Shown here piece by piece: positions 7,099 to 31,295 of a stretch of DNA of 64,000 nucleotides. Under the pieces are notes generated by a model. The model made no database searches. It saw only the letters and a program-made list of their open reading frames with translations, and had not been told where the DNA came from. Position 1 is the stretch's first letter. Each line of letters starts with the position of its first letter. Position numbers and translations under genes: made by a program. The stretch spans positions 768,001-832,000 of the forward strand of contig NZ_JAKKUT010000002.1 in the NCBI RefSeq assembly GCF_029582805.1, read 5' to 3'. This DNA is from Candidatus Synechococcus calcipolaris G9. Its GTDB lineage: Bacteria > Cyanobacteriota > Cyanobacteriia > Thermosynechococcales > Thermosynechococcaceae.

Positions 7099-8385
7099 TT
7101 AGCTAACTGAATCAATTACCTGACGAATGATTTCATAGGCTGATTCCAGTTGTGCTGGGGTTATACAGTAGGGAGGCATTAGATAAATGGTGTTTCCGAG
7201 GGGGCGAATCAAAAAACCGGCCTCTAAAAAACATTGCCGTAGGCGTGGCCCCAGGGCATCAAAATAATCTCCCCCTCCCTGGGTTTGAATCTCCATGGCA
7301 GCGATCGTGCCACAGGTGCGTTGTTGGTGAACCAGGGGATGATCTCCGAGCCATTTCCCCATGAATTGCCAATGGAGGGTTTCTAGTCGTTGATAAACCT
7401 GGGGTTCTTGCTCCAATAACTCTAGGGATGTGACCCCCACAGCACAGGCCAGGGGATTGCCGGTATAGGAATGGCTATGGAAAAAGGCCTGACTGAGATC
7501 ATCTTTATAAAAGGCTTGATAAATGTCTTCTGTTGCTAAGGTGACGGCTAAGGGTAAACATCCCCCCGATAGTCCTTTGGAGAGACAGAGTAAATCGGGG
7601 GTGGTTCCTGATTTTAAGCAGGCGAAGAGTTCCCCAGTGCGGCCAAAGCCGGTCATCACTTCGTCATAGATGAGTAATAGGCCCGCTTGCCGCGATCGCC
7701 CCTCTAGGGCCTGTAAAAATTCCGGGCGACAGATCCGCATTCCCGCCGCTCCCTGGACAAGGGGTTCAATAAAAATGCCAGCATATTCCTGGCCCTGTTC
7801 GCTGAGGAAGCGATCCAAAACAGCCAATGCCTGGGCCTCTTTTTCATCTACGTGGCGATCGCCAGGATAGGTTGCCGGAAAGGGCACCATATCGAAGGGA
7901 TAGAGCAAGGGTTGGAAGGACTTCCACCAGGGAGAGCTCTGGCCCACTGCCATTGCCCCCAATGTGTCGCCATGGTAGCCCCCCTCAAAACCCAAAAACC
8001 GCGATCGCTGGGGCTGGCCACACCGTTGCCAATATTGGTAAGCCATTTTCAGGGCCACTTCTACGGCCGTTGAACCATTATCCGAAAAAAAGACCCGTGT
8101 TAAGGACTGGGGGACATGATCCAGAAGTTTCCGGGCAAGCTGCTCCGCTGGCTCATGGCTAAACCCTGTAAAAATCACATGTTCTAGCTCTTGGGCCTGC
8201 TGGTAAAGCCGCTCGGCTAAGACCGGATGACCATGGCCATGGATCGTCACCCACCAACTGGAAATACAGTCTAATATTTTGCGTCCGTCCTCCAGTTCTA
8301 AGGTAGCTCCCCTGCCCCGTCGCACCATCAAGGGTGGATCGGCGGTTTTCATTTGGGTAAAGGGCTGCCAAATCGGAGAATCCAT
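7099..8385 (-). CDS. bioA: Adenosylmethionine-8-amino-7-oxononanoate aminotransferase
   Basis: Biotin biosynthesis enzyme that transfers an amino group from S-adenosylmethionine to KAPA, giving DAPA. It is a PLP-dependent class III aminotransferase of normal length (428 residues). Visible landmarks are WQPFTQM near the start, the substrate motif ISSWWVTIHGH, the cofactor-binding GGYHGDTLGAMAVG, DEVMTGFGRTG and the PLP lysine in CLSKGLSGG. WWVTIHGH and QPFTQM point specifically to BioA. It lies 14 bases downstream of the FAH-family gene on the same strand; no other biotin genes are in the window. Confidence 0.95.
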   Translation of the reverse strand: MDSPIWQPFTQMKTADPPLMVRRGRGATLELEDGRKILDCISSWWVTIHGHGHPVLAERLYQQAQELEHVIFTGFSHEPAEQLARKLLDHVPQSLTRVFFSDNGSTAVEVALKMAYQYWQRCGQPQRSRFLGFEGGYHGDTLGAMAVGQSSPWWKSFQPLLYPFDMVPFPATYPGDRHVDEKEAQALAVLDRFLSEQGQEYAGIFIEPLVQGAAGMRICRPEFLQALEGRSRQAGLLLIYDEVMTGFGRTGELFACLKSGTTPDLLCLSKGLSGGCLPLAVTLATEDIYQAFYKDDLSQAFFHSHSYTGNPLACAVGVTSLELLEQEPQVYQRLETLHWQFMGKWLGDHPLVHQQRTCGTIAAMEIQTQGGGDYFDALGPRLRQCFLEAGFLIRPLGNTIYLMPPYCITPAQLESAYEIIRQVIDSVS

Positions 8386-12445: not shown

Positions 12446-14422
12446 CTAGAAGAAAAAAGGAAGTCCAGTAAATAGTGACACTAGTACGCCCGTTGCAGCT
12501 AGAGCTTTAAGGCCCACACGAACATTTTTGTCAAATTTATCTCGATCTTCTCGTTCTTGTATAGCTTGAAGCAGAAGAAATTGATCTTCGTCACTCAGGG
12601 TAACAATATATTCTTCTGTTAATGTATTGGCTGGAATTCTCTTAAAGTGATTAATAGACTCACGCATTTTTTGTTTGAATTGATCTTGTTTTTTCTCAAA
12701 TTCTTTTTTTGTATTCTTTTTATGCTCTTCTGCGTCGTTTTTTATTTTCCATATTTTTGAATATGTTTTTTCACTAACAGTTGGAAGAGATATCATCATA
12801 AGTGTTACTAGTCCCCAAAAAGTAATCCATAAACAAGCAAAAACAACCATTAATCCACCAAGTTGAATTGCATAATATCCTAGTAAACATTGCATTGAGC
12901 CACTAATAAATACGATAAACTTTGCTCCAATAGTTGAACCTTCTATCTGTTTTTTGGAAAAATTACTAAGCTTTGCTTTTTTTTCTTTTTCAATATTTTT
13001 TATTGCTTCCTTATATTCTCGTTCAAAATCGTCCTGCTGTTGTTTTAATTTCTCAGAAACAGATCTCATTCGTCCTGGATGAAAAGGTTTGGAAGGAACA
13101 GGTGCTAGTTCCTGATGCTCTGATTCAGGAAACTGAGGATTATCGTAAGCTGCCTTAACTACATCTAATTGTTTATCTTTTGCTAAGTTAATGAGAACAG
13201 CAATAGGAGTATTTAGATTCTTGGCAACCGCTCGACGCACACTGAAGGATTCTTGGTCCTGGGCAAGGTATTCCAAAATTGATGAAGAAGTATTTGGATT
13301 TTCTGCAACTTTTCGCCGTACTATTCTATGGGTATCATTTGCTAATTGCTCCAAAACAAAAATAGGAGTGTTTGGATCACTGGCTAATTTTTCACGTTCT
13401 TCAAGACTCGCACGTTCTTCAAGACGTAAAACAACTTGATTTGTAGATGCTTTAGACTTGTTCTCAGAAAAACTTAAGGCAGCTAACACCTCATTGGCAG
13501 ACCCATAGCGATCTCCGGGCAAAGGTTTTAACATTTTTTCTAAAACATTTTGTAAATTTGAACTCACCGTTGCAGACCAATTCCAACGGCCACGATAAGC
13601 ATCAAATAATGTCTCAGGCCCTTTCCCGGTCAATAGCACCAAACACGTTACTGCCAAGGCATACAAATCTGAACTGGGCGATACCCGATCACCCCGTATC
13701 TGTTCCGGTGGTGCAAAGTACGGTGTATAAATGCTGGTATGGTGTCCTTTTTGGGTGAGTTGAGTGCCTGAAAACTGTTTTACTGCCCCAAAATCAATTA
13801 AATACAGTCGCGACTGTCCCGGAACATTAGCCACCTTCTGCCGCATAATATTGGACGGCTTAATATCCCGATGAATTGACCTGCGATCGTGGATAAACTG
13901 CAACACTGGTAAAAGTTCCTGCAAAAGCTGTAAAACTTGAGCCTCACTCAAGGGGCCCTGCCGGATCAACTCATCTTCAAGGCTGTCTCCCTCAACCAAC
14001 TCTTGGACTAAGTAAAAAAAGCGATCGGGATGCTGCCCCAGATTCGTTTTAATCTCTAAATCAAAAAACGCAAACAAATAGGGAATCTGGGGATGTTCGC
14101 CCAATTTCTCTAAAACGGTTCCCTCTCGCTCGAACAGTTCATGGGCCTTCTGAATATCCCCTGGATCCGTAAAATTTGGTCGTAATTGCTTGATCACACA
14201 TTGGCGCAAACTAGGCGTATTCAAATCCCGCGCTAAATAAGCAGCCCCAAACCCCCCGGCTCCCAATACCTTTTCCGCGACATAGTGACCCTGAAGAATT
14301 AGGGGCATTCTACAGGTCGTACAAAAACGTTGCGGAATTGCCCGCCGCTGGCGTGGATCATCTAACTCCGGCAACTGATTCTGGGGTTGACGACAACTAG
14401 GGTGAGTGCAATGTACCAACAT
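12446..14422 (-). CDS. Zinc-finger Ser/Thr protein kinase with helical repeats and membrane helices
   Basis: Cyanobacterial-type serine/threonine kinase (658 residues). Four cysteines at residues 5, 10, 34 and 37 likely bind zinc. The kinase domain spans about 45-315 with ATP loop GAGGFGAAYLA, Lys78, HRDIKPSN (184-191) and LIDFGAVK (208-215), so it should be active. Residues 340-430 hold short alpha-helical repeats with the recurring NPNT/LNTPI and VRRKVAEN pattern of leucine-rich-repeat-variant or HEAT-like units. A lysine-rich coiled coil, two membrane segments, another coiled coil and a final hydrophobic helix follow. It is a paralogue of the kinase at 56757, nearly identical in layout through the catalytic domain. 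The C-terminal half is AT-rich, suggesting separate origin. Confidence 0.9.
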   Translation of the reverse strand: MLVHCTHPSCRQPQNQLPELDDPRQRRAIPQRFCTTCRMPLILQGHYVAEKVLGAGGFGAAYLARDLNTPSLRQCVIKQLRPNFTDPGDIQKAHELFEREGTVLEKLGEHPQIPYLFAFFDLEIKTNLGQHPDRFFYLVQELVEGDSLEDELIRQGPLSEAQVLQLLQELLPVLQFIHDRRSIHRDIKPSNIMRQKVANVPGQSRLYLIDFGAVKQFSGTQLTQKGHHTSIYTPYFAPPEQIRGDRVSPSSDLYALAVTCLVLLTGKGPETLFDAYRGRWNWSATVSSNLQNVLEKMLKPLPGDRYGSANEVLAALSFSENKSKASTNQVVLRLEERASLEEREKLASDPNTPIFVLEQLANDTHRIVRRKVAENPNTSSSILEYLAQDQESFSVRRAVAKNLNTPIAVLINLAKDKQLDVVKAAYDNPQFPESEHQELAPVPSKPFHPGRMRSVSEKLKQQQDDFEREYKEAIKNIEKEKKAKLSNFSKKQIEGSTIGAKFIVFISGSMQCLLGYYAIQLGGLMVVFACLWITFWGLVTLMMISLPTVSEKTYSKIWKIKNDAEEHKKNTKKEFEKKQDQFKQKMRESINHFKRIPANTLTEEYIVTLSDEDQFLLLQAIQEREDRDKFDKNVRVGLKALAATGVLVSLFTGLPFFF

Positions 14423-19603: not shown

Positions 19604-21601
19604 ATGTCCAAGCTTTTGGCGACACTTCCAGACGGCAAGGTCTGTGACTTCATAGACCAGAAAATCCGCAATGATACGCCCGAAGAATATGTTCGGCAGA
19701 ACATCGAGCGTCGGTTGGTGCTGGAATTGGGCTATTTGCCGGAACAGATCGAAGTTGAGTATCCCATTAAACAGGGTAGTAAGACGGTTCGCGTCGATCT
19801 AGCTATCTTCCGCGAAGGAGATCAGCACAATCAGGAAAATATTTGGATCATCATCGAGTGTAAAAAAGACTCAGTGCCCCCCTCCGCTAGTAAAGATGGA
19901 GTTGAGCAGCTTAGATCTTATATGGCTGCCTGTGACAACTCAGAGTGGGGAATGTGGACAAATGGTAAGAAAAAGACTGTTTTACGTCGAATTAGGACGG
20001 AAGAAGGAATTGAGTATGAAGAGCCTAATGATATTCCTTCTAAAGATGGAAACATTGAAGAGGTCGATCGCCCCACTCGTGACGCTCTAAAAAATGCAGT
20101 TGGAGACAATTTACTATTTTCCTTCAAAATCTGCCACGACCATATTTATGTCACAGATGGATTGCAGAAGCAACCTGCATTTTTTGAGCTTTTGAAGGTT
20201 ATTTTCTGCAAGATTTATGATGAACGCAATGTTAGAAGTCCATTGGAATTTTATGCAACAGCTCTTGAAAAAAAAAGTAATGATGGTCGGCTAACTGTCT
20301 TCAATAGAATTAGTAAAATCTTTGATGCTGTTAAGAAGCAGTATCCCGCTATTTTTGATGCCAATGATGAAATCAAGCTCCAGCCCCGATCGCTAGCTTA
20401 TATCGTAGGTGAGCTTCAACGGTATAGCTTTCTGAGTACGAATATTGATGTGAAGGGTAAAGCGTATGAAGAGCTTGTTGGAGCAAACCTAAGAGGCGAT
20501 CGCGGTGAATTTTTCACGCCGAGAAATGTTCAAAAAATGACGATTCGGATGCTTGATCCAAAGGTGACCGATAAAGTCCTCGATCAGTCTTGTGGAACAG
20601 GTGGGTTTCTGGTCATTGCGATGAATGAAGTGATCGAGAAGCTTAAAACACAAATCAAGAAACAGTCTGGCAAGGTTGCTGAACAGGCTGGGGTATGGAG
20701 TGAGGCGCTCAATGAAAGCATCAAGGAAACTGCTCGATCCAATTTCTTCGGGATTGATATTAATCCAGACCTGGTTAAAGCAACCAAAATGAATATGGTG
20801 ATGAATAACGATGGGTCTGGAAATATTTTCAGGCAGGATTCATTGTTGCATCCCCATCAGTGGGAAGGTAGTTTTCGCAAACAGTTTGCTAAGGCACTGA
20901 ATATTGATCCAAAAAGCTTACGCGGTGAAAAAGATTTGGCGCATTTCGATCTAATTGCTACTAATCCGCCTTTTGGATCAAAACTGCCGATTAAAGATCA
21001 AGAAACTTTAAAGCAATACCAACTGGGTCATGTTTGGCGAGAAACGGAAACAGGTTGGGAACCCACGGATCAGCTTCAAACCTCTGCTCCTCCAGAAATT
21101 TTGTTTATTGAGCGATGCTGGCAATTCCTCAAGCCCAGTGGACGAATGGGAATTGTGTTGCCAGATGCAATTCTGGGCGCACCGGGCTTGCTCTATGTCC
21201 GATATTGGATGATTAAGCATTGCCGCATTGTGGCATCCATTGACCTGCATCCTGATACCTTCCAGCCTCGCAATGGCACCCAAACCTCAGTTCTGATTCT
21301 TCAGAAGAAAACTGAGGAGGAAATTAATCGGGGAACGATGCCCGACTATGAAATTTTTATGGCACAGGTGAAAGCGATCGGGCATGATAAGCGAGGTAAG
21401 ACCGTCTACAGACGCAATGAAGAAGGGGAAGAGATACTGTATCCACCTAAAGATCAAGAGACAATTCCTTTACTTGAGCGCACGGCAACTGGAGAAGGCA
21501 CAGTTAGACCTTTAGCTCGCCAGAAGCAGGAAGATGATGATACCGAGCAGGTAGCCAACGAGTTTATCGACTGGAAAAAGCAGGTGGTACTGGGATGGTA
21601 A
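19604..21601 (+). CDS. HsdR-N nuclease-like domain fused to N6-adenine DNA methylase (HsdM-like)
   Basis: A 665-residue fusion. Residues about 20-160 match the N-terminal nuclease domain of type I restriction subunits: E35 in RQNIERR, D65 in VRVDLAIF and E85-x-K87 in IIIECKK form an intact PD-(D/E)xK signature. Residues about 270-600 are an HsdM-type methylase with GEFFTPRNV (301-309), SAM motif DQSCGTGGF (327-335) and catalytic NPPF (454-457). It lacks any helicase or translocase domain. It overlaps the hsdS gene by seven bases. Expected activity is adenine methylation directed by HsdS; whether the nuclease domain cuts is unknown. AT content is higher than in the flanking genes, suggesting transfer. 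Confidence 0.9.
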   Translation: MSKLLATLPDGKVCDFIDQKIRNDTPEEYVRQNIERRLVLELGYLPEQIEVEYPIKQGSKTVRVDLAIFREGDQHNQENIWIIIECKKDSVPPSASKDGVEQLRSYMAACDNSEWGMWTNGKKKTVLRRIRTEEGIEYEEPNDIPSKDGNIEEVDRPTRDALKNAVGDNLLFSFKICHDHIYVTDGLQKQPAFFELLKVIFCKIYDERNVRSPLEFYATALEKKSNDGRLTVFNRISKIFDAVKKQYPAIFDANDEIKLQPRSLAYIVGELQRYSFLSTNIDVKGKAYEELVGANLRGDRGEFFTPRNVQKMTIRMLDPKVTDKVLDQSCGTGGFLVIAMNEVIEKLKTQIKKQSGKVAEQAGVWSEALNESIKETARSNFFGIDINPDLVKATKMNMVMNNDGSGNIFRQDSLLHPHQWEGSFRKQFAKALNIDPKSLRGEKDLAHFDLIATNPPFGSKLPIKDQETLKQYQLGHVWRETETGWEPTDQLQTSAPPEILFIERCWQFLKPSGRMGIVLPDAILGAPGLLYVRYWMIKHCRIVASIDLHPDTFQPRNGTQTSVLILQKKTEEEINRGTMPDYEIFMAQVKAIGHDKRGKTVYRRNEEGEEILYPPKDQETIPLLERTATGEGTVRPLARQKQEDDDTEQVANEFIDWKKQVVLGW

Positions 21602-23241
21602 ACTACGCCTTTCAACTGGAATATACACTGATCTCGCCTGCCGATGAGTCTGAAAAACTCTCAACGACGATCAAACTCAGCGAAGTCTTGAATGCTGGCG
21701 TTCGCCTGGAAGCCTCTGCGTTTAGCATCGAAGCCCATAATGCGGTGACTGCTTTGGAAAACAGTGGTTTACAACTGATTTCGCTTTATGGCGAGGGGGG
21801 GCTTTGTCAGGAAGCTCATAATGCTTTTCGATTCAAACGAATCTATGTAAAGTCTGAGCAAGGGATACCATTCCTTTCTAGTTCAGACATCATTAGCTTG
21901 CGTCCCGAAACTGATCGTTATCTAAGCCGTAAATACACCCGAAAATTGGACATTCTTGCAGTTCAGAAATGGGATGTATTAATTTCGCGCTCTGGGACAA
22001 TAGGAAACATCGCCTTAGCAAACGATGCTTTCACAGGAAAAGCAGTTTCAGAAGATGTGATTCGATTGAGTGCAAATGATCCTGATGTGGCAGGTTTTGT
22101 CGCTGCTTTCTTACGAAGCCGGTATGGCCGCCCTCAACTGACTCAAGCCACCTATGGTTCAGTAATCGTTCACATTGAGCTAGAGCATCTTAAGCGAGTA
22201 CAGATTCCTGATTTGCCGCCGATTCGTCGGATTGAGATCGGTCGATTAATGTGCAAGGCGAGTGAAGTGCGTGATGAGGCAAATCGACTGTTGGATGAGG
22301 CGGATCGGTTACTGCATGAGCGGTTGAGCTTACCTTATTTGAAAGACATTGCTCCAACTGGGAGTGCGTCTGCGATCTCCAAAATCAAAGCCTCTCAATT
22401 AATGGGACGGTTAGAAGGCAGCTTTCATGATCCAGTGGCGATCGCGGCTGAAAAACAGTTGAGCGAACTATCCGTTGGAGTTACTACGGTAGGCGATTCA
22501 CGAGTTACTAAAGAAATTAGAGCAGTTACGAAATTTCGCAAGCGAACCTACGTTGAAAAGGGTGGGATTCCCTTGTTGAGTAGTAAGCAACTCTTTCAAA
22601 TCGACCCAATAGATGTTAAGGGATTGGCTAAAGGCGCTCACACAAAGGATCTGCCTGAGATTCAGCTAAAAGAAAATATGATTGCGGTGACTTGCTCCGG
22701 CACCATTGGGCGAGTACAAATTATTCCTGCCTACATGGCAAAATGGACCGCAAATCAACATGCAACCCGATTTCTTGCAGCGGAAGACATGAATGCAGGT
22801 TATCTCTATGCCTGGTTGGCTTCTGATTATGGATATTGTTTAATTACTCGTAACTCTTATGGCTCAGTGATTCTTGAGGTTGACAAAGAGATGTTTTCCT
22901 CTGTTCTGATTCCACTCCCTGAACCAAAGATTAGAGATGAAATTGGCAATCTGGTTCTCAAAGCCAATCAGCTACGGGATGAGGCTTGGCGAAATGAACA
23001 AGATGCAATTACCAGACTCGAAAGCTGGATTGCCAACAAACCAACTGTCTCAGCACAAGATGAAACTAATCCAAATAAAATTGACTTAACCAAGATTACG
23101 TATGACCCAAATGCAATTCCAATTTGGGAACTGGTTGCTCAAATCTCTGCTCAAGTCCCCGATGAAGAATGGAAAAAGCTCCCGACTGACTTAGCGAGAA
23201 GATTTGATGATTACCAGAAACAGAGGCAAGGACAAGATTAA
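21595..23241 (+). CDS. hsdS: Type I restriction-modification specificity subunit
   Basis: Determines the DNA sequence recognised by the methylase. The 548-residue protein has two target-recognition domains with related conserved ends: SRSGTIGNIALA and TYGSVIVHIE in the first half, CSGTIGRVQII and SYGSVILEVD in the second, each followed by a helical spacer (RLMCKASEVRDEANRLLDEA and LVLKANQLRDEAWRNEQDA). A bipartite target is therefore expected. It starts inside the last codons of the methylase gene (ATGGTAA overlap) and its stop overlaps the next start by one base, so all three genes are probably translationally coupled. The unusual C-terminal extension after residue 470 has no recognised match. 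Confidence 0.9.
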   Translation: MVNYAFQLEYTLISPADESEKLSTTIKLSEVLNAGVRLEASAFSIEAHNAVTALENSGLQLISLYGEGGLCQEAHNAFRFKRIYVKSEQGIPFLSSSDIISLRPETDRYLSRKYTRKLDILAVQKWDVLISRSGTIGNIALANDAFTGKAVSEDVIRLSANDPDVAGFVAAFLRSRYGRPQLTQATYGSVIVHIELEHLKRVQIPDLPPIRRIEIGRLMCKASEVRDEANRLLDEADRLLHERLSLPYLKDIAPTGSASAISKIKASQLMGRLEGSFHDPVAIAAEKQLSELSVGVTTVGDSRVTKEIRAVTKFRKRTYVEKGGIPLLSSKQLFQIDPIDVKGLAKGAHTKDLPEIQLKENMIAVTCSGTIGRVQIIPAYMAKWTANQHATRFLAAEDMNAGYLYAWLASDYGYCLITRNSYGSVILEVDKEMFSSVLIPLPEPKIRDEIGNLVLKANQLRDEAWRNEQDAITRLESWIANKPTVSAQDETNPNKIDLTKITYDPNAIPIWELVAQISAQVPDEEWKKLPTDLARRFDDYQKQRQGQD

Positions 23242-23663
23242 TGCGGGTCGTGTTTGCGGATACGGGCTACTGGATCGCTTTTTTGAATCCCCACGACGAT
23301 TTACATGATAAAGCTCTAAATCTCTCAAAAGCAGTGCAGCCTGCTCACATTGTCACGACTGAAATGGTTTTGGTTGAGGTGCTGAATGATTTTAGCGATC
23401 GCGGTGAGTATTTTCGACAAAGTGCTGTGAACCTCATCCGAATGCTCTACCAGCACCCAAATACCACTGTCATTCCTCAGACCAGTGTGCAATTTCAGTC
23501 GGCACTGACGCTCTACGAGCAACGTCCTGATAAAGAATGGAGCCAAACGGATTGCGTGTCGTTCAAGATTATGGAAGATCAGAGCATTGTTGACGCACTT
23601 GCCTACGATAAGCACTTTGCCCAAGCAGGCTTTACTGCTCTAATGCGAAACTGTCGGATGTGA
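23241..23663 (+). CDS. PIN-domain nuclease in the methylase operon
   Basis: A 140-residue PIN-domain protein, probably a metal-dependent RNase. Acidic residues of the active site are visible: D7 (FADTGYW), E41/E46 (TTEMVLVEVLND), D104 (QTDCVSF) and D118/D123 (VDALAYDKHF). It shares TAATG with the hsdS stop, a tight one-base coupling. No antitoxin is adjacent. It is either an orphan VapC-like toxin carried by the cassette or a functional part of the modification system. Which of these applies is not known. Confidence 0.85.
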   Translation: MRVVFADTGYWIAFLNPHDDLHDKALNLSKAVQPAHIVTTEMVLVEVLNDFSDRGEYFRQSAVNLIRMLYQHPNTTVIPQTSVQFQSALTLYEQRPDKEWSQTDCVSFKIMEDQSIVDALAYDKHFAQAGFTALMRNCRM

Positions 23664-28870: not shown

Positions 28871-29674
28871 CTACCGCCGTGCCTGATTTAGGCGTTGGAT
28901 GGACAGTTCCACGAAATTGGCATCCGCCTCACAGCCAATAAATCGCCGACCTAAGGATAATGAGGCAACACCGGTAGTCGCAGAACCCGCGAAGGGATCC
29001 AAGACGATATCTCCAGGGTGGGTACTCGCTCGCAGGCATCGATCAACTAGCTCTAGGGGCTTTTGGGTCGGGTGTTTGCCATGGGCCTTTTCCTTCTGTC
29101 TAGGGGTAGACATACGCCAGACATTTTTCATCTGTTTATCCCCGTTTTCAGCCTTCATATCCTGGTAATTAAAGGTATAGGATTCCTTTCCCTTGCGGGC
29201 CTTTGTTGCCCATAGGATTAACTCGGTGGCGTGGGTAAAGCAGCGACATCCTAGGTTGGGGGGCGGAGCGGTTTTTTCCCAGATAATGTCATTCAGGATC
29301 CGAAAACCAAGCTGTTGCATAGCAAAGCCAACGGAGGGATACACATGAAGGGTTCCCGTCACCCATATCGTTCCCGTGGGTTTGAGGAGACGATAGCAGG
29401 CGGCCAACCAGGCTTTATTAAAGGCATGATCCATCTCTACCCCTTGACTGCGATCCCATTCCCCTTTGTTGACCTTGACCATTCGGCCAGCAACACAGGT
29501 GAAGCCATCATTGGAGAGGTTATAGGGGGGATCGGTCCAAATGCAATCAATGGTAGCGGCGGGGAGAGCGGCCATCAATTCTAGGCTATTACCGTGGTAG
29601 AGTCGGGATTCCCCATCCGCCGATGTCCATACAAGTTCTGGGCTGGTTTGGTTAAGGTTTAGCTCTGAGGTCAT
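28871..29674 (-). CDS. DpnA-like N6-adenine DNA methyltransferase
   Basis: A solitary DNA methyltransferase with the beta-class motif order: catalytic TDPPYNLSNDGF near the N terminus and SAM motif DPFAGSATTGVASL near the C terminus, preceded by GKHPTQKPLEL. The layout and phrases such as VNKGEWDRS, ILNDIIWEKTAPPPNLGCR and RCFTHATELILWA match DpnA (M.DpnIIB), a GATC adenine methylase able to act on single-stranded DNA. GATC sits at the centre of HIP1, so it may modify those sites. The ATG at 29674 (MTSELN) is preferred over an upstream hydrophobic extension from 29722. No partner endonuclease is visible. Confidence 0.88.
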   Translation of the reverse strand: MTSELNLNQTSPELVWTSADGESRLYHGNSLELMAALPAATIDCIWTDPPYNLSNDGFTCVAGRMVKVNKGEWDRSQGVEMDHAFNKAWLAACYRLLKPTGTIWVTGTLHVYPSVGFAMQQLGFRILNDIIWEKTAPPPNLGCRCFTHATELILWATKARKGKESYTFNYQDMKAENGDKQMKNVWRMSTPRQKEKAHGKHPTQKPLELVDRCLRASTHPGDIVLDPFAGSATTGVASLSLGRRFIGCEADANFVELSIQRLNQARR

Positions 29675-29732
29675 CGGAAGGGCTGTCAAAAATGGTATCG
29701 AGGATGGTATTAAAAAAATCACCAGAAAGAGA

Positions 29733-31295
29733 CTAACAGAAGGAGAGGTGAAGATGCTCTTTCAGATATTGCTCACTAATGCGTTCATAGGGACTAAATA
29801 TCGTTAGAATATCTTTCCCATAACTCCGACGAGTGACGCGGCTATCAAATAAGGCCACCAGGGTTCCCCCTTGTCGAACTGGGGCGATCGCCCGTTCTAG
29901 GCGATTGAGGCACTCAGGCAAAAGATATTGGCGGAACCAGTCTTGTTTTTGTTGTTTATGAAATTCAATTTGGGCCGCCACTAGGGGGTCTTCCGGGGAG
30001 GGAATGGGGAGGGTTGCCAAGGCCAACAGGGCCGGACAGGGGATCTGACGGGCATGGCGAATCCAAAAGGATGTGCGACAAATCAAGATGGTCGGGGTCA
30101 AAATAGTCGGGGAACTTGCCTGAATATGACTGGCGGGGGCGATCGCTAGACGCTCAATCTGGACACGGGAACCAAATTCGGCGGCAAGCACCGTTCCCAG
30201 CTGATCCCGGAGGGGCATATCTTCGACAAGAATGACGGCCGGCCCCTCCAGGTGAGAAACATGGCTGAGGAGTTCGGAGAGGGCCCGTTGCAACGCGGGT
30301 TGAAATTCCGGCGTATTGGGCAAGGGAAGATGCTCGGCTAAGTAAAATTGGATGGCTTCGGTATGGCGATCGGGGGCAAATTTAACCGTCGTCATCGTGG
30401 GGAGGCCCAACCGCTGATGGAATAGGGGAGCCTGGGCCGTTGCTTCAATGGTTCCGCCAATAAAGACGGTGGGCTGGCGTTGCCAGAGGGGTTCTAAGGT
30501 GGGGGCGAGGGGAATGGGGGCGGCGTGGAGGCTGATATGCCCCTGCTGGGGATCCACTTGGCCCCAGGTCACGCTCTCGTCATGGTCTAAAAGATGAAAA
30601 AAGCTGTCCCAGGGGCTAGGAAGAGGGTGGCGGGTGGACTGGAGCTGGCCCCCAAGGTGTTGCAGGAGCGATCGCTCGTCGTCTGTCAAAAGGTACCGCT
30701 GATCCGGGTTTATGGGTCGCTGAAATAGACGATGGGCCAAGCGGGCGCGAAAATCGCGAATCAAGTCTAGGGCCATGGGATAGGCTAATTTCAAAGATTC
30801 CCAGGCTTGGGTATCAATGGTTTGGGTTAACTGTTGCCGACTTTCTGGCTCTAAATGTTCTAGTCCATCCACAAGGGTGACGATTCCCGCCGGAAATCCT
30901 TGGCGTTGGTTGATGTAATCCTGGAGCCAGTGGTCTTGGCTCACTAAAAATAAACCCTTGAAGGAGTCTTGGGGCCAGCGATCGCCCGTTTGTACTGGTT
31001 TGGTGCCGTCTAGAAACGTCAAGAGTCGGGGAATATCATGGTGGAGTAATTGGGGATGCACTTCCTCAGGGGCCACTAAAATCACCGGTTCCGGGAAAAG
31101 GAGGAGGGGCAGTAAATAACTTAGCTGATAGCGTCGCTGAAAAACCGCACTGCCACTGATCTGGAGAAAACAACCGCGATGCAGACGCAATGCCCGGGCC
31201 ACCAAACGGGCCAGGGTTAAATGATGGGGCCAGGTTATCTCCGCACTCGATCGCAGGAATAACCGTAGCTGGGCGTGGACATCGGCTTCGATCAC
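29733..31295 (-). CDS. DinG-like helicase family protein with eroded ATPase motifs
   Basis: A 520-residue protein that aligns in layout with cyanobacterial DinG/XPD-type helicases. The expected Walker A region reads LQISGSAVFQRRYQLSYLLP, lacking the GxGKT loop, and the DEAH box position reads LVDGLEHLE. The C-terminal part keeps family character: TVFIGGTIEA, the motif V-VI region LNRLERAIAPVRQGGTLVAL, then FDSRVTRRSYGKDILTIF. It therefore probably cannot hydrolyse ATP and may act as a DNA-binding or structural protein. It sits 58 bases before the DpnA-like methylase on the same strand. Confidence 0.7.
   Translation of the reverse strand: MIEADVHAQLRLFLRSSAEITWPHHLTLARLVARALRLHRGCFLQISGSAVFQRRYQLSYLLPLLLFPEPVILVAPEEVHPQLLHHDIPRLLTFLDGTKPVQTGDRWPQDSFKGLFLVSQDHWLQDYINQRQGFPAGIVTLVDGLEHLEPESRQQLTQTIDTQAWESLKLAYPMALDLIRDFRARLAHRLFQRPINPDQRYLLTDDERSLLQHLGGQLQSTRHPLPSPWDSFFHLLDHDESVTWGQVDPQQGHISLHAAPIPLAPTLEPLWQRQPTVFIGGTIEATAQAPLFHQRLGLPTMTTVKFAPDRHTEAIQFYLAEHLPLPNTPEFQPALQRALSELLSHVSHLEGPAVILVEDMPLRDQLGTVLAAEFGSRVQIERLAIAPASHIQASSPTILTPTILICRTSFWIRHARQIPCPALLALATLPIPSPEDPLVAAQIEFHKQQKQDWFRQYLLPECLNRLERAIAPVRQGGTLVALFDSRVTRRSYGKDILTIFSPYERISEQYLKEHLHLSFC

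Follow-up and report, generated by a model that had tools for sequence, protein, structure and literature searches.

Introduction

Restriction guards are known from few cases, and PrrC and PARIS are given as examples in the passages cited here (PMC12707154). As those passages describe it, the restriction system EcoprrI keeps the ribonuclease (RNase) PrrC latent, and PrrC becomes active when the phage T4 protein Stp inhibits EcoprrI (PMC2610378, PMC12707154). PrrC is the working precedent for the guarding proposed at the locus considered here, a three-gene cassette in a 64,000-nucleotide stretch of the genome of Candidatus Synechococcus calcipolaris G9 (the whole stretch is called the window below). 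The cassette encodes a restriction-modification (RM) subunit, the S subunit HsdS and a PIN protein. We propose that HsdS is probably also the antitoxin of a VapC-like RNase, in which case a type IIB-like RM system would have captured a VapBC-like module, and the RNase would act once the restriction complex has disappeared or been put out of action.

The cassette and PrrC/EcoprrI are alike in that an RNase gene is linked to a restriction system, the PIN gene here being coupled to the HsdS gene and the RNase activity of its product being assigned from its family. Whereas PrrC is an ABC-ATPase-linked anticodon nuclease (ACNase) that a type Ic complex silences, the cassette has a PIN-only protein of 140 amino acids (aa) and a type IIB-like complex, and its putative silencer is a transferable antitoxin peptide on HsdS. 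A toxin-antitoxin pair inside a restriction operon also has a parallel in the DarTG2 pair, which lies within a type I RM island, the RptR island (PMC12255303); there, however, the antitoxin is a gene of its own, whereas here it is part of HsdS. Among cyanobacterial VapBC systems, two Synechocystis DUF2281-PIN pairs are described, in the passages cited, as toxic and neutralised in Escherichia coli (PMC4963859). The likeness stands at the level of the DUF2281-PIN arrangement, an antitoxin followed by a PIN toxin with the genes often overlapping, but here a whole HsdS replaces the N-terminal half of the antitoxin. As in VapBC, the toxin gene is immediately preceded by the antitoxin sequence, which in the window is part of a fusion and at most other places where the tail occurs is a small gene. 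Finally, BsaXI is, in the cited sections of its description, a type IIB enzyme of composition (RM)2S whose N-terminal domain requires E73, D90, E105 and K107 (PMC11997821). The cassette shares with BsaXI and BcgI a nuclease-methylase RM subunit, a separate S subunit and the absence of HsdR. Unlike BsaXI, whose RM subunit has 916 aa instead of 665, it has an HsdS that bears an antitoxin tail and an attached PIN gene, and for it an (RM)2S assembly and cutting on both sides of the site are predictions. What appears to be new is the HsdS tail as the antitoxin half of a PIN-linked family; no HsdS-antitoxin/PIN fusion was reported in the titles or abstract beginnings listed by searches of open-licence PMC papers aimed at restriction specificity subunits and antitoxins or PIN toxins.

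An antitoxin-like tail on HsdS

The last ~50 residues of HsdS, judged by sequence similarity, are not HsdS; they belong to a family of small antitoxins, of which they represent the C-terminal half, a feature overlooked in an earlier reading of the window made from its sequence (the original prediction). As a single query, this tail had matches in 40 of 291 cyanobacterial genomes (E≤0.1; 30 of ~65 rows were retained as loci), and a tail profile had matches in 62 of 386, from which loci were taken at E≤1e-8 and weaker rows left out. These relatives lie mostly in open reading frames (ORFs) of 51-157 aa, and of the 77 distinct places with a tail, 57 have a PIN match that begins -9 to +10 nucleotides (nt) from the antitoxin stop. 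The census covers L090-L119 and L144-L217, with places that share their first 90 nt merged. As a control we used the 6,809 ORFs of 80 loci of restriction relatives from GTDB genomes; the same spacing to a PIN start was found for 10 of them, nine being HsdS-tail ORFs and the other an ORF that overlaps the same PIN gene. The N-termini ahead of the tail are interchangeable, including DUF2281, the phycobilisome domain PF00502, a HicB-like sequence recognised by eye, and others that are unassigned. Well-matched fusions to long proteins were limited to two among the 386 genomes, namely HsdS (frames of 554-566 aa) and the phycobilisome domain (frames of 214-219 aa). Exchangeable N-termini together with PIN linkage would fit the behaviour of a C-terminal toxin-binding antitoxin peptide. 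In the AlphaFold2 model of HsdS (predicted local distance difference test, pLDDT, 82.6), the body is confidently predicted, a disordered stretch spans residues 484-496, and three short helices make up the tail.

The product of the third gene is most likely a VapC-like RNase toxin, to judge from family matches and conserved residues. Its Pfam PIN match (E 1.8e-4, 22.5 bits) falls just under the cut-off of 23.6, and its score against the VapC equivalog is below the curated cut-off (24.9 vs 80 bits). It is closer to the solved structure of VapC20 (E 3.4e-7), whose entry is named a 23S rRNA-specific endonuclease. Among 29 aligned rows, the acidic residues D7, E46 and D104 are present in 28, 29 and 27, respectively, and the exceptions at D7 and D104 are broken or truncated PIN genes.

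A natural deletion bears on the relation between tail and toxin. In locus L128, the RM gene and both HsdS recognition domains have been lost and residues 1-50 of HsdS stand in frame with the tail, while the PIN gene that follows this shrunken HsdS-tail is intact. The loss of restriction with retention of tail and PIN argues that the tail suffices to live with the toxin. The remnant cassette (L128:7303-8084) lies between near-identical direct repeats of ~85 bases, which suggests a mobile or repeat-mediated insertion.

Could the PIN protein be an accessory RNase effector, recruited by an HsdS tail that serves as a tether and not as an inhibitor, and acting on RNA once foreign DNA is bound? HsdS is indeed the DNA-reading subunit, and the RM-HsdS family repeatedly pairs with extra genes, with HEPN-like, SLFN_AlbA_2, OLD-like and DUF3644 proteins encoded after HsdS. 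However, the tail and PIN pair occurs mostly in small ORFs outside HsdS, and in L128 it persists with neither RM gene nor recognition domains; this is the behaviour of a toxin-antitoxin pair and not that of a recruited effector, which we regard as an unlikely explanation. The methylase-guided defence with a PIN RNase effector put forward in the original prediction gives way to a PIN protein better read as a toxin, with its antitoxin fused to HsdS.

Further members and non-members of the tail family deserve mention. The antitoxin peptide is fused to PF00502 (E 8.3e-17 in L122), with a PIN gene directly after, at L122:1666-2307 and L123:1762-2418. On a Stanieria conjugative plasmid (L220:1193-1926), a HicB-like N-terminus joined to the antitoxin peptide overlaps a PIN gene. 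Two long ORFs, one in L120 and one in L121, and the shorter ORF of L131 match the tail weakly, but no PIN gene comes after them and the matches were judged to be due to chance. A PDB search with the tail returned weak matches only, all five to designed-looking protein names, and these were set aside; a Salinibacter antitoxin matched the tail only marginally.

Distribution and evolution of the fusion

In 79 of the 80 restriction loci HsdS adjoins the RM gene, the exception (L036) having almost no downstream sequence. Wherever its end is present, HsdS stops near window residue 475-490, except in nine loci, and these nine are the only ones that also carry a PIN homologue. Accordingly, among 68 usable loci, tail and PIN are both present in 9 and both absent from 59. 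The loci dropped were L036 (no HsdS match), 11 with <450 nt after HsdS, and 4 with an incomplete HsdS; three of these 4 are also among the short ones, and L015, one of the short 11, was restored. When the window and G251 are added, there are 11 carrier rows, which group as a single clade (support 97, one label change) spanning several cyanobacterial families, with the tail kept in 11/11. One clade spread over several families suggests that the fusion had a single origin and was transferred later. The linkage of the PIN gene to the pair, which the original prediction proposed to look for in relatives, holds in all 11 clade members and is absent from every other lineage, which half bears out the condition that the prediction had named as its refutation. 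Among the 386 cyanobacterial genomes, the RM gene is present in 8, and four of these have tail and PIN (the genome of the window, G235, G237 and G251); for the clade counts, G235 and G237 are taken as L012 and L013, which are apparently the same genomes, and G251 as L124.

The HsdS body has a median ratio of nonsynonymous to synonymous substitution rates (dN/dS) of 0.13; the medians of the tail and of PIN are 0.17 and 0.074, respectively, which indicates that the tail is under purifying selection. Furthermore, tail distances and PIN distances are correlated (r 0.86, 24 rows; 0/2000 permutations as high; 5 of 29 rows with a truncated or frameshifted PIN left out), a correlation that shared ancestry also explains in part.

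These data also bear on the reading in which an ordinary type IIB-like system stands beside a hitch-hiking VapC and the tail fusion is a chance, functionless read-through. Mobile defence genes often adjoin each other, and the cassette does look acquired, because its GC content (0.41-0.47) is lower than that of its flanks (0.47-0.54) and its neighbours are unrelated cyanobacterial genes. Nevertheless, a functionless read-through is at odds with purifying selection on the tail, with its retention throughout a clade that spans several families, with its being in frame in L128, and with an HsdS-PIN junction that contains no small separate antitoxin gene. We therefore consider hitch-hiking very improbable.

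Some observations weigh against HsdS as the antitoxin of the PIN protein, and we gather them here. The fusion appears to have arisen once, so the association in the 68 loci is one event kept many times and not a series of independent events, and the PIN tree requires 3 label changes, not 1. By profile, 20 of the 77 tail places lack PIN, of which at least 6 show visible PIN remnants. Within the fusion clade, PIN is disrupted in L015 and the tail is shortened in L010. Saturation affects many codon comparisons, so that 10 of 36 PIN pairs and 21 of 45 tail pairs could be used. Finally, the tail is predicted at moderate confidence (pLDDT ~64); this and its short helices are what one would expect of a peptide whose folding takes place upon binding.

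A type IIB-like restriction pair

The first two genes are, by architecture, a type IIB-like (BsaXI-like) pair and not a type I system short of its motor. Pfam finds HSDR_N_2 (E 4.8e-23) and N6_Mtase (E 9.6e-31) in the first product and two Methylase_S stretches in the second, so that the S subunit is separate and has two recognition domains. The nuclease residues D65, E85 and K87, described as intact in the original prediction, are invariant together with E52 in 30/30 rows of alignment A1 (29 of the 80 restriction loci plus the window; a second alignment, A2, holds 21 loci plus the window). BsaXI is the best PDB sequence match of the RM subunit (E 3.8e-38, methylase region) and also the best full-length PDB match of its AlphaFold2 model (pLDDT 77; Foldseek E 3.5e-25). 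The two superpose with a VIA Z of 26.2 across residues 10-665 and a root-mean-square deviation of 16.5, and therefore their domains lie at different angles. D65, E85 and K87 are likely counterparts of the residues that BsaXI requires in its N-terminal domain; an HMMER alignment weakly sets D65 on BsaXI D90 (i-E 0.77), the sole residue that is aligned directly.

None of the three genes of the cassette encodes a helicase or an HsdR translocase, as had been noted originally, and the HsdR translocase of type I restriction-modification is therefore not part of it. The absence had been presented as a puzzle, which dissolves because the type IIB plan cuts without a translocase, so that the pair needs no HsdR. 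A standard hsdR, considered earlier as a possible distant partner, does occur elsewhere in the genome, but in a complete type I locus with its own hsdM and hsdS (hsdM 698 aa, hsdS 449 aa, hsdR 1074 aa; L218, C2:1289500-1303000), to which the one HSDR_N (PF04313) match of the genome belongs. We rejected a type I system that borrows this HsdR, given that L218 has its own hsdM and hsdS and that phmmer searches with genes 1 and 2 against the L218 ORFs gave no match.

Less probable still is that genes 1 and 2 are Mad2 and Mad5 of an incomplete or variant form of the MADS defence system with its remaining components elsewhere. The nearest curated matches of the two genes are the NCBIfam models MAD2 and MAD5 (E 3.4e-187 and 4.5e-104, respectively), and PADLOC mad2 and mad5 match as well, but the scores lie under the curated cut-offs (623.7 vs 720 and 348.8 vs 400 bits), the cassette holds no other mad genes, and the eight flanking proteins scanned include no MADS operon. 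A full MADS system was rejected on the same scores and because other mad genes were not found nearby. A PIN gene is not known to be part of MADS. A Ser/Thr kinase 5 kb away (window 12446-14422, minus strand) matches mad6, but PD-T4-6 models match it better and unrelated genes intervene; it is probably an ordinary cyanobacterial kinase.

Cassette layout, genomic setting and other partners

The layout of the cassette, three genes on the plus strand, agrees with the coordinates first described, and the coupled operon proved exact, with 7 bases shared by the RM and HsdS genes and one base shared by the HsdS and PIN genes (table 1).

Table 1. Features of the cassette, in positions of the window
Feature	Position	Strand	Basis
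RM subunit of 665 aa, PD-(D/E)xK nuclease and N6-adenine methylase in one chain	19604..21601	+	ORF call, Pfam, AlphaFold2, PDB match
HSDR_N_2 nuclease domain, aa 26-145, with D65, E85, K87	19679..20038	+	Pfam; alignment A1
N6_Mtase domain, aa 281-590, NPPF motif at 454-457	20444..21373	+	Pfam; alignment
7-base overlap of RM and HsdS genes	21595..21601	+	ORF coordinates, sequence
HsdS-antitoxin fusion, 548 aa, HsdS body to ~aa 480	21595..23241	+	Pfam; ends of tail-less relatives; AlphaFold2
Linker from HsdS body to tail, aa 484-496, pLDDT <50	23044..23082	+	AlphaFold2 model
Antitoxin-like tail, last 53 aa of HsdS	23080..23238	+	Family shared with stand-alone small antitoxins before PIN genes
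TAATG, one base (23241) common to HsdS stop TAA and PIN ATG	23239..23243	+	Sequence
VapC-like PIN toxin (predicted), 140 aa, acidic residues D7, E46, D104, D123	23241..23663	+	Pfam, PDB match, alignment

A scan for promoters and terminators gave sites that were not in excess of those in shuffled sequences. In PHROGs, general matches were found for the methylase and HsdS only, with PIN unmatched. Plasmid relatives number two for HsdS and seven for PIN, every one at <60% identity. Downstream of the cassette by 5 kb, a DNA methylase (PADLOC type II/orphan) lies beside a DinG-like helicase (window 28871-31295, minus strand).

Elsewhere among the 80 restriction loci, the position that PIN occupies in the window is taken by other genes. 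An unassigned protein of ~260 aa with a conserved RC(C/S)LAH HEPN-like motif (RCCLAH or RCSLAH), unrelated to PIN, is encoded 13-15 nt after HsdS in seven (L027, L028, L030, L034, L052, L054 and L057); the two examples tested had no Pfam match at cut-off, and the one tested had no PADLOC match. In L083, a DUF3644 protein that matches the candidate defence family PDC-S19 (E 3.3e-147) begins at 7477, after HsdS. SLFN_AlbA_2 proteins follow HsdS in L019 and L079, and OLD-like ATPases, recognised by eye, do so in L031, L035 and L039. The RM-HsdS pair may serve as a base on which partner genes are exchanged.

A model for HsdS as antitoxin

With HsdS as the antitoxin of the PIN protein, the toxin-binding C-terminal part of an antitoxin would have become fused to HsdS through a flexible linker, and translation of PIN would follow that of HsdS, the two being coupled by TAATG. 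Either as a free protein or within (RM)2S, HsdS would bind PIN and keep it silent. If the complex were lost, not renewed, degraded, or split by a phage anti-restriction protein, PIN would be freed and would then cut RNA and bring growth to a halt. What the data show is the gene structure, the homology of the tail to stand-alone antitoxin-like ORFs ahead of the same PIN family, the joint presence or absence of the two, purifying selection and the deletion in L128; of the model we infer the binding, the toxicity, the release trigger and the RNase activity, the last from the family. Two triggers fit: addiction, with the toxin released upon loss of the operon, because the pair persists without restriction in L128; and guarding, with release by phage anti-restriction, because the fusion partner is a restriction subunit and not a small repressor. 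More tentatively, and with somewhat less than even weight, we suggest that (RM)2S itself might be the antitoxin of the PIN RNase, that a phage protein that displaces or unfolds HsdS, or triggers its degradation, might free the toxin and abort the infection, and that the peptides of this family might act as portable leashes.

If this is true, any host protein that gains a peptide of the family becomes monitored, as the phycobilisome-domain fusion also suggests. An antitoxin peptide carried covalently on a restriction subunit would provide a simple and testable route from an ordinary toxin-antitoxin pair to a guard, and it would offer a search rule, namely to screen other proteins of defence systems for antitoxin tails. 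The natural series from stand-alone pair to HsdS fusion to an HsdS shrunk to an antitoxin makes the evolution of this coupling directly testable.

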